64,000 nt of DNA from Psychrobacillus sp. FSL K6-2836 (lineage in GTDB: Bacteria > Bacillota > Bacilli > Bacillales_A > Planococcaceae), in assembly GCF_038003085.1 (NCBI RefSeq), contig NZ_JBBOOM010000001.1, positions 1,054,001 to 1,118,000 of the forward strand. The letters run 5' to 3'. The notes beneath the pieces are model-generated. The model had not been told where the DNA came from and made no database searches. It saw only the letters and a program-made list of their open reading frames with translations. Position numbers and translations under genes: made by a program. This document shows, piece by piece, positions 59,426 through 61,825 of this stretch. Every line of letters starts with the position of its first letter. Positions within the stretch are counted from its first letter, which is position 1.

Positions 59426-59759
59426 CTCGCATTCCTCCTTATATAGCATTAGTATTTCCATTGTATATCAATTTATGACGCTTCTACGTGCTCACATATT
59501 TCTCTTTAGTACAAAAATAGCAGTCGAAATTAGTATTCGACCGCTTAAGAAAATATCCATTTATGCATACACTAAAGATTTTTTTTAGTATATCTAGTAT
59601 ATTTGAAATGCAAAAAGAAATTAATACACTTTTATTTAAGTATTTCGTACCCTTCTAAAATGCTCATAGAGTCTTAGGAAGTTTCAATACTTAAAATAAG
59701 ATTGGAGGAAACTATTCTATCAATAGAAGTTTAACGAAAATGCTAATAAGACACCCAGT
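59426..59759. other. Intergenic region between the RNase H-like and PlcR-like genes
   Basis: AT-rich. GCAGTCGAA-ATTAGTA-TTCGACCGC (59519-59545) is a hairpin that could terminate transcripts, and ACTAAAGA-T8-AGTATATCTAGTATAT (59570-59602) is a short dyad-rich patch. GGAGGAAAC at 59704 is not followed by a usual start codon. No PlcR box (TATGNAN4TNCATA) was found here. Confidence 0.4.
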
Positions 59760-60650
59760 CTAATCTAAATATTGCTTTTTATTCTGTTTAATCGCTTGAA
59801 TGTAGAATGGAAGCTCTTGAAATTCAAAGATGAATAGAGCTTGTCGGTATACTTCTCTAATTTCTGCAACTGGAGCAAGTTTTTTTTCTAAGCATTGACC
59901 CTTGTAATAGAGGAATTGCCCAGTAAAAAAGAAAAATGTTGATTCTTTAGCCTTTTGAATACCAAGGTTAGCGGTTTCTAAAGCTGCGTCAATGTCATTG
60001 ATATCATACAGTATTTTACACTTATTAAATAATACAATTATAAGTGTTTCATAAATTTTATAATCATTATAATTTTTATGGATATGTTCCTTCAATATTT
60101 TATTATAGTGATACAAACATTTATAACTTTCACCCTTATCTCCGTATATATTTGCAATTGAATTATTTATTTTAATATGAAGGAAACGGAACTGAATGGT
60201 AGTTTGGTTAGAAAAATTTAATATTCTTTTCAGACTAACTATACATTCATCAGGGTCAATCTGTTTTAAAGAATAGTTTGAAGTTAGTAATATGTATTCT
60301 AAATATAAGTTCAACCAAACATTATCTTCATCAAGTTTATTACTGTTAATAATAGAAATAACTTTTTGATAATTATGCTCTTTTAAATGAAACTCAATAT
60401 CTTTTATAAGTTTTTCGCTTTCTAAGACATTTTTATGAAATAACATCTCAATAAAATACTCGACTGGGACTTGTAGCTTTAGGGCTATCTTCAATAAAGT
60501 ATCTATTGCTGGATAAACTTCTCCGGCCTCTATTCGACTTATCGTCGACTGTGTACAAATATCTTTTGCGAGCTCCTTTTGGGAAAATCCCAGTTCAGCT
60601 CTCATTTTACTTATTTCAATGCCTAAGTATTTCATTTCCAACAGGATCAC
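59760..60650 (-). CDS. PlcR-like RNPP-family quorum-sensing regulator
   Basis: A 296-residue cytosolic regulator (291 if the ATG at 60635 is used; the first codon is GTG). An N-terminal Xre-type HTH (about residues 8-65) closely follows PlcR: ELAKDICTQSTISRIEAGEV then YPAIDTLLKIALKLQVPVEY. The C-terminal part (about 75-290) is a row of TPR helices that would bind the signalling peptide. Length and the QALFIFEFQELPFYIQAI-type final repeat also agree with PlcR (about 285). A secreted PapR-like peptide is encoded divergently 34 bases away. PlcR activates target promoters when bound to its re-imported heptapeptide. Confidence 0.87.
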   Translation of the reverse strand: MILLEMKYLGIEISKMRAELGFSQKELAKDICTQSTISRIEAGEVYPAIDTLLKIALKLQVPVEYFIEMLFHKNVLESEKLIKDIEFHLKEHNYQKVISIINSNKLDEDNVWLNLYLEYILLTSNYSLKQIDPDECIVSLKRILNFSNQTTIQFRFLHIKINNSIANIYGDKGESYKCLYHYNKILKEHIHKNYNDYKIYETLIIVLFNKCKILYDINDIDAALETANLGIQKAKESTFFFFTGQFLYYKGQCLEKKLAPVAEIREVYRQALFIFEFQELPFYIQAIKQNKKQYLD

Positions 60651-60683
60651 CCCATATTATATAAAAAAAGGACGGTAAAAAAC

Positions 60684-60809
60684 ATGAAAAAGTTATCTAT
60701 TATTCTATTAATCGTATTAGCAGTAGCTTTATTTCCAAATGTAAGTAACGAAACTGCTTTATCACTAAAAGGTCCAATTACTACATTAGATCTACCATTC
60801 GTCCACTAA
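60684..60809 (+). CDS. PapR-like secreted signalling peptide precursor
   Basis: A 41-codon gene, below the size limit of ordinary gene calling. The product has a signal-like start (MKKLSIILLIVLAVALFP, hydrophobic core at residues 4-17), a short polar middle (NVSNETALSLKGPITT) and ends LDLPFVH. B. cereus PapR is 48 residues with the same layout and ends in the active heptapeptide ADLPFEF, so D-L-P-F at residues 36-39 is the key match. AAAGGA lies 11 bases before the ATG and a strong terminator follows. It is divergent from the PlcR-like gene, whereas papR of B. cereus is downstream of plcR on the same strand. Confidence 0.82.
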   Translation: MKKLSIILLIVLAVALFPNVSNETALSLKGPITTLDLPFVH

Positions 60810-60816
60810 TTCAATC

Positions 60817-60856
60817 AAAATCCAATAAAATTATAACATTAATTTTATTGGATTTT
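60817..60856 (+). terminator. Terminator after the PapR-like gene
   Basis: AAAATCCAATAAAATT / AATTTTATTGGATTTT, a perfect 16-bp stem with an 8-base loop, beginning 8 bases after the stop. The right arm itself ends in TTTT. Confidence 0.8.
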
Positions 60857-60886: not shown

Positions 60887-61825
60887 ATGCAGCCCACACC
60901 AAATCTTGATGTAAATCAGCTTTCATTACATAAGCATAGCGCAGATAAGAAAAATAATCATCAAAAAAATAGCATTTCTAATATAAATAGCATAGAAGGA
61001 ACTGATAGCGATCAAGTATTTGCATCTTCTCTGACTGCACTGGAATTGGACCTTGTAAATGCAATAGATCGAAACCAGTTTGAATTGTATTACCAACCTA
61101 AAGTCGATGCGAAGAAGAATTTAATCATTGGAGCCGAGGCCCTTATTAGATGGAATCATCCTGAATTAGGGTTAATCCTGCCTAACGATTTTATACCTTT
61201 GGCAGAAAAGATTGGTTTTATAAATAATATTGGAAAATGGGTTAAAAAAACTGCCTGTTCTCAAAACAAAACGTGGCAGGAAGCAAACTTACCTGCTATT
61301 CCAGTTTCTATCAATCTATCAGCTTCTCGCTTCATGGAGAAAGATTTAGTCAGCAGTATACAGGAAACACTGGAAGAAACTCAGCTTGAAGCCCAGTACT
61401 TAGAGATTGAAATTACCGAAACTTCTATTTTGAAGAACGAGGAAATTGTCTTCTCTCTATTAGATGAGTTAAAAAATTTAGGGATCAAAATAGCACTAGA
61501 TGATTTTGGGACTGGATACTCTTCTTTATCCCATCTGCATCATTTTAACGGGAAAATTGACATACTAAAAATTGATCGTACGTTTATACAGGATTTAAGT
61601 ATTGCCAAACAAGAGGATGCAAATTTCATCGTACATATGATTATTCAATTATCAAACCAATTGAAAATGGATGTAATCGCAGAAGGCGTCGAAACTATGG
61701 AGCAATTGGAGGTTCTACAAAACTATAATTGCAATACGGTGCAAGGCTATTTGTTCTCCAAACCAATGCCTGCGTATCAGTTTGCCGAGTTATTGAAAAA
61801 ACAGAGGATCGATCCTATTCGTTGA
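60887..61825 (+). CDS. EAL-domain cyclic-di-GMP phosphodiesterase
   Basis: A 312-residue protein with a polar, unstructured N-terminus (1-48) and one EAL domain (about 52-305). The catalytic set is visible: E84-A85-L86, N143 in SINLS, E176/E178 region in EIEITE, D205-D206 in LDDFGTGYS, K228 in ILKIDR and E266 in VIAEGVET, so the enzyme should hydrolyse c-di-GMP to pGpG. There is no GGDEF or membrane sensor. It is co-oriented with and 77 bases after the peptide gene, beyond a terminator, so read-through coupling is uncertain. AAGGAG lies 8 bases before the ATG. Confidence 0.9.
   Translation: MQPTPNLDVNQLSLHKHSADKKNNHQKNSISNINSIEGTDSDQVFASSLTALELDLVNAIDRNQFELYYQPKVDAKKNLIIGAEALIRWNHPELGLILPNDFIPLAEKIGFINNIGKWVKKTACSQNKTWQEANLPAIPVSINLSASRFMEKDLVSSIQETLEETQLEAQYLEIEITETSILKNEEIVFSLLDELKNLGIKIALDDFGTGYSSLSHLHHFNGKIDILKIDRTFIQDLSIAKQEDANFIVHMIIQLSNQLKMDVIAEGVETMEQLEVLQNYNCNTVQGYLFSKPMPAYQFAELLKKQRIDPIR

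Follow-up and report, generated by a model that had tools for sequence, protein, structure and literature searches.

A PlcR-like receptor gene and a divergent papR-like gene of Psychrobacillus sp. FSL K6-2836 form, with very high confidence, a sensor of the PlcR-PapR type. Together with a stand-alone EAL-domain gene behind papR they probably make up a Psychrobacillus quorum-sensing module of the PlcR-PapR type that contains its own output gene. The module is proposed because PlcR is the best sequence and fold match of the receptor and the peptide gene, conserved at 13/14 loci, is under purifying selection; because the EAL gene occurs in exactly the 13 genomes with papR and was lost with papR in the remaining receptor genome (G009); because receptor residue 89 and peptide residue 6 covary, synonymous change is low in the first 50 receptor codons, and a variant PlcR box is specific to receptor genomes; and because a PAS-GGDEF-EAL protein belongs to the B. 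cereus PlcR regulon (available text of PMC2464732). The pair is a genuine PlcR-PapR-type pair and not the strict B. cereus PlcR-PapR, from which it departs in gene order and in the Glu6 contact.

The window is the whole stretch of 64,000 nucleotides that was analysed, from a genome of 4.54 Mb in five contigs (G000); all coordinates are window positions.

59760..60641, minus strand: PlcR-like receptor gene (HTH and TPR); 293 aa (TTG start) or 296 aa (GTG start at 60650).
60684..60809, plus strand: papR-like gene; 41-aa precursor, ATG start, hydrophobic leader, C-terminus LDLPFVH.
60786..60806, plus strand: codons of the predicted mature heptapeptide LDLPFVH, aligned with PapR7 ADLPFEF (as given in the available text of PMC6568020).
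60642..60683: gap of 42 bases between both start codons; two ribosome-binding-like sequences, GGGGTGAT (minus) and AGGACGG (plus).
60817..60856, plus strand: hairpin separating papR from the EAL gene, perhaps a partial terminator; MFE -16.8, z -4.34 (computed for the window sequence only).
60887..61825, plus strand: stand-alone EAL-domain gene, 312 aa, predicted as probable output gene; Pfam EAL 237 bits.
59554..59569, plus strand: variant PlcR box TATCCATTTATGCATA, directed toward the 3' end of the receptor gene.
59598..59603, plus strand: -10-like TATATT, 28 bases past the variant box; spacing kept in 14/14 receptor genomes.
60500..60515: palindrome TATCTATTGCTGGATA, weak candidate papR operator, within receptor codons 43-48, low synonymous change.
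60550..60562, plus strand: TGTGTACAAATAT, weak candidate papR promoter element, within the receptor gene, identical in 13/13.
59519..59545, minus strand: terminator-like stem-loop behind the receptor gene; one found, 0.4 expected in shuffles.

Nineteen Psychrobacillus genomes were compared, 14 with the receptor and five without; six further loci are contigs of six among the same genomes, so that the sample is 14 genomes, not 20. Both open reading frames of a preliminary description of this DNA (59760-60650, minus strand, 296 aa from GTG; 60684-60809, plus strand, 41 aa from ATG, ending LDLPFVH) were recovered. Its 33-base gap is right from GTG to ATG, but the likelier start at TTG (60641) makes the gap 42 bases. 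This TTG is probably preferred over the GTG at 60650, because it is codon 1 in 13/13 receptor orthologues compared, because at three of six loci compared the frame above it reads WGD(I/F)LE and the GTG is not in frame, and because GGGGTGAT, read as a ribosome-binding sequence, lies just upstream.

The regulator is an RNPP receptor, with an N-terminal HTH followed by an RNPP C-terminal TPR domain: Pfam RNPP_C (125.5 bits) and HTH_3 both score above cut-off, the HTH motifs claimed beforehand are present in the translation, and no other protein of its genome matches RNPP_C. Sequence search of the PDB retrieved PlcR (2qfc; residues 6-288, E 1e-35); one further protein was matched weakly, in its HTH part. 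An AlphaFold2 model (35 sequences; mean pLDDT 90.2) has PlcR entries as its five top fold matches, the first being the PlcR-PapR7-DNA complex 3u3w (E 7e-14, TMq 0.73), followed by ComR, Rgg and PrgX. The PlcR likeness noted in the preliminary description is thus borne out by sequence and by fold. The receptor is PlcR-type in that it is closer to PlcR than to six other RNPP_C regulators: in a tree of 44 rows, a 100/100 branch separates the 38 PlcR-like rows from the outgroup of six other RNPP_C/TPR Xre regulators (NprR, Rap, AimR and PlcRa by name left out). Grouping with non-RNPP Xre regulators, named in advance as grounds against the proposal, was not seen, the receptor lying with PlcR on the same side of that branch. 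Within the PlcR-like side the Psychrobacillus receptors form a group (97/92) together with one metagenome protein and seven receptors from the same family, and PlcR sits in another subclade (93/92); an earlier tree without outgroup likewise parts the two.

A divergent peptide gene was found in 13/14 receptor genomes, always head-to-head, so that both the claimed arrangement and the proposed search for such genes in related genomes gave a positive result, and its absence from orthologous loci, which would have spoken against a pheromone, is not the rule. Neither G009 nor the five receptor-less genomes gave a match at a credible score. All 13 C-termini read xDLPxxx, with 11 kinds of heptapeptide: LDLPFVH and FDLPFIN (two genomes each); YDLPFTN, LDLPYVH, LDLPFIH, LDLPHIF, LDLPLIH, LDLPYIH, LDLPFIY, LDLPHTY and LDLPYTW (one each). 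D-L-P is invariant and positions 1, 5, 6 and 7 vary, which goes against the earlier assignment of a D-L-P-F core as the specificity part. The precursor begins with KK and a hydrophobic run, a putative signal peptide as read by eye, and fits the PapR-type pattern of a small protein, exported-type by the same reading, with a C-terminal heptapeptide containing LPF or a close form; the mature length is taken by analogy from PapR. A mean dN/dS of 0.29 (55 pairs from 11/13 genes, two 44-codon genes being left out) indicates purifying selection on the peptide gene.

That the 41-codon frame encodes a small membrane peptide, or is a conserved non-coding stretch, is very hard to credit: the protein is indeed without a family match, but the dN/dS value, the C-terminus common to 13/13 and the PapR-like C-termini beside PlcR relatives of other genera all oppose it. 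G009 (L034/L009) is a listener-only case provided by nature: its receptor frame has stayed open, it has neither the peptide gene nor the EAL gene any more, and its box unit is turned round to face the gene that follows.

Glu6 of PapR7 contacts Lys89, Gln237 and Tyr275 of PlcR, described as specific contacts in the available text of PMC6568020, and this contact marks the strict PlcR-PapR; it is not found in Psychrobacillus. Residue 6 is Val, Ile or Thr in 13/13 genomes, and the contact residues, whose inspection had been proposed, are His89 in 67/68, Gln237 in 53/68 and Tyr275 in 67/68 database relatives; Lys89 is present in 50/51 PlcR relatives. At loci of other genera, Glu6 peptides occur with Lys89 (L038, L039, L082, L083, L086), Gln89 (L035, L036, L047) or Gly89 (L090, L099), and among those with a recognised peptide never with His89. 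L081 and L103 have His89 and no peptide was found there to compare. This covariation supports, at the level of sequence, a PlcR-PapR-type pair with a re-coded signal; the suggestion that the system has its own pherotype is supported by it and by the 11 heptapeptides in 13 genomes. L043, from another genus of the same family, has an identical LDLPFVH, head-to-head, and His89; its neighbours encode a B12-binding radical SAM protein and an MFS transporter. In the tree it lies beside L035 (Gln89, Glu6) with support of 96/78, and therefore the paired change of residues 89 and 6 may have arisen twice, the support being less than full and rows within a genus not being independent.

Synonymous change is 0.50 of expected in the first 50 receptor codons (41 fully conserved codons) versus 0.85 in the rest (118 such codons), and 0/20000 permutations were as low. 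A papR promoter located within the receptor gene would produce such a pattern, to which translation initiation may contribute. The lowest seven-codon window alone is not significant (p 0.14), and the palindrome TATCTATTGCTGGATA may be a coding coincidence. As a genome-wide operator the pattern TATCNAN4TNGATA was rejected (15 sites, 13 in the control), and a promoter scan listed no promoter at TGTGTACAAATAT. A clear PlcR box at the papR promoter was not found, the nearby boxes being either intragenic and weak or situated past the distal end of the receptor gene, which weighs against the module. The canonical box was rejected as papR operator, matches with up to two mismatches within the window being at chance level (63, 61 expected); in the window's own genome TATGNAN4TNCATA with one mismatch gave at least 399 sites versus 304 in the control.

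The exact variant box TATCCATTT(A/G)TGCATA is present by the receptor gene in 14/14 receptor genomes and absent from the five receptor-less genomes. With one mismatch allowed it matches in all 19, the five included, which tells against the preferred reading. A wider pattern, TATCCAWWWDTGCATA, occurs 23 times across the 14 receptor genomes and never in the five others or in the control: 14 at the receptor gene; three upstream of secreted-protein genes; one intergenic, pointing away from the nearest gene; and five inside coding frames, taken as chance. The three lie about 90-190 bases upstream of genes for leader-bearing proteins in G005, G010 and G014 (L183, L184, L185); these genes are of two unrelated kinds, one common to G005 and G014 (327 aa) and one in G010 (182 aa), with no Pfam match where scanned. 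The strict box occurs only once in the window's own genome, so that no wider regulon is seen there, a further point against the module. A search of that genome for the box with TATANT at 24-32 bases was equally unproductive (four sites, three in the control).

The box unit points at the receptor 3' end in 13 genomes and in G009 the opposite way, to the next gene. In Psychrobacillus the box lies at +167 to +258 from the receptor stop; in relatives with a convergent papR it lies at +216 (L038), +235 (L083) and, with one mismatch, +209 (L082). Our reading is that the Psychrobacillus unit is the putative retained promoter of a convergent papR that has since been lost. A conserved stretch of about 115 bases surrounds the box at 13/13 loci (window 59554-59700; L021-L033), with AAATACTT repeats, TATATT and the box, and with no conserved ORF or fold. 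We considered and rejected the idea that the interval from the receptor stop to the 3' box hides a peptide or an RNA, there being no ORF common to the 13 loci, almost no conserved fold and no Rfam match up to E 1.

The receptor could have the opposite sign, repressing overlapping divergent promoters until the peptide relieves repression. The start regions do overlap (42 bases between start codons), and with the conserved sequence inside the receptor gene a bound receptor could block either promoter; PlcR is however an activator (available text of PMC6568020), the 28-base spacing from box to TATATT in 14/14 genomes fits an activator site, and repression is considered quite improbable.

The product of the EAL gene is an EAL domain alone, preceded by a short N-terminus that varies. 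A short EAL frame (280-361 aa, 66-100% identical) follows papR directly on the same strand in 13/13 papR genomes; at E<=1e-60 a short stand-alone EAL gene is found in 0/6 genomes without papR (G009 and the five receptor-less genomes), whose EAL proteins at this threshold are all in frames of at least 575 aa and at most 49% identical. G009 lost the gene together with papR and kept the receptor. The best PDB match is 4rni (E 5.5e-63), and the EAL, DDFGTGY, KIDR and AEGVE motifs are kept in the aligned rows (the G014 row cut at its first Met), so that domain and motifs conform to the EAL phosphodiesterase pattern and enzyme activity is predicted. The G014 frame has an interruption before the EAL domain, which does not favour an output gene. 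Six genomes have a longer protein whose EAL part is 60-66% identical to the short EAL; the one scanned is a PAS-GGDEF-EAL protein, a possible source of the bare gene by loss of domains. In B. cereus the PlcR regulon includes such a protein, Bc3747 (available text of PMC2464732), and in B. thuringiensis plcR transcription rises at high c-di-GMP (available text of PMC5816809).

The EAL gene might instead be a linked neighbour under its own control beside a real PlcR-PapR-type sensor, the true regulon being the secreted-protein genes behind the variant box, as in B. cereus. The boxes in G005, G010 and G014 agree with this, as do the lack of a box found between papR and the EAL gene and the hairpin that separates them, predicted in 13/13 genomes. 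Against it stands the strict linkage, 13/13 with papR and 0/6 without (E<=1e-60), always adjoining and on the same strand, and we consider such a neighbour unlikely.

In the preferred module, the 41-aa precursor would be exported and would yield its C-terminal heptapeptide (LDLPFVH), which would be taken up again by the cell and bind the PlcR-like receptor in its TPR groove. The peptide-bound receptor would activate variant-box promoters as well as the divergent promoter of its papR; papR would rise at high density, and the EAL gene with it by read-through of the hairpin. The soluble, sensor-less EAL phosphodiesterase would lower c-di-GMP, with a possible effect on motility or biofilm. We thus infer a PlcR-PapR-like working with the EAL gene as probable output.

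At E 1e-15, PlcR-like receptors were found in 38/261 genomes of the family (9/19 genera), and at E 1e-25 in 25/398 sampled genomes of the class. Sixteen plasmid records carry one, including Planococcus versutus pPS15-1, whose convergent 'hypothetical protein' is a frame ending TELPFEN. Peptide genes, head-to-head or tail-to-tail, were recognised at 6/16 loci L035-L050 and 5/25 loci L079-L103; none was found beside the other 10/16 and 20/25 PlcR relatives, which counts against the explanation preferred here. Convergent precursors of L086, L090 and L099 carry the heptapeptide three to five times in tandem (TELPYEY, KELPFEF, KEIPFEF). In L036 and L047 an SdpI-family gene and a DCC1-like oxidoreductase gene lie near the receptor and convergent peptide gene. 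A word search of the main text of two RRNPP surveys (PMC10075063, PMC9765709) found no mention of Psychrobacillus, a supplementary-table entry being possible; in the available text of one of them, Bacillales systems encode the pheromone downstream. Of the papers searched, one names Psychrobacillus together with PlcR, and PlcR only within a reference.

Taken jointly, and tentatively, these data would describe a circuit of PlcR type that exists beyond the B. cereus group. Its pheromone gene and bare EAL gene would make up a single divergent output unit, through which a secreted heptapeptide sets c-di-GMP directly; its code would have been rewired from Lys89 and Glu6 to His89 and a non-acidic residue 6; the same signal, LDLPFVH, would have emerged in another genus as well, so that the two genera could respond to each other; and the box behind the receptor gene would be the promoter left over from an ancestral convergent papR. 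PlcR-PapR, the model quorum sensor of virulence, is mostly described from the B. cereus group. In the soil genus Psychrobacillus a circuit of this kind is found with a different peptide code, and its relatives recur in other Bacilli; this natural series of receptor-peptide pairs allows the evolution of RRNPP specificity to be tested directly, and the fixed EAL link offers a path, open to testing, by which a Gram-positive peptide signal could reach c-di-GMP. New here are the EAL linkage, the residue 6/89 swap, the variant box with TATATT, and the head-to-head or tail-to-tail peptide genes in other genera. The preliminary interpretation largely holds; it had missed the EAL gene, the variant box, the relatives in other genera and the precedent of papRa/plcRa for upstream placement (available text of PMC3519770).

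Among known systems, the other-genus receptors (L035-L050, L079-L103) have the same Pfam architecture and like peptides (TELPFEN, Planococcus versutus plasmid; LDLPFVH, L043; TELPFEH, L082), but the genes are tail-to-tail in L036, L038, L039, L047, L082 and L083, and some precursors (L086, L090, L099) repeat the heptapeptide; an EAL gene was not seen among the listed flanking genes of L035-L050, scanned in part. PlcRa-PapRa of B. cereus, compared by description (available text of PMC3519770), is likewise a PlcR paralogue with the peptide gene (papRa) upstream of the receptor gene (plcRa); its heptapeptide CSIPYEY is internal to a 93-aa PapRa, whereas that of the window is C-terminal in 41 aa, and according to the same text no palindrome was found at PlcRa targets. 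Bc3747 is also a c-di-GMP-metabolising protein, under PlcR control in B. cereus, but is multidomain with sensor and cyclase domains and in the available text of PMC2464732 is not described beside papR, whereas the Psychrobacillus protein is a bare EAL encoded next to papR. PlcR-PapR of the B. cereus group differs in that papR lies downstream of plcR on the same strand and not head-to-head; Psychrobacillus is without Glu6, has His89 for Lys89, Ile64 for Tyr64 and, in the recognition helix region, Thr33 for Glu33, has one half-site of the box changed (one base) and an EAL gene attached, and falls in a separate subclade. Common to both are receptor fold and length; Asn159, Asn201, Lys204 and Tyr275, kept in nearly all 68 database relatives; an adjacent exported-type precursor with a C-terminal xxLPxxx heptapeptide; and a box close to TATGNAN4TNCATA, found also upstream of secreted-protein genes in three Psychrobacillus genomes.
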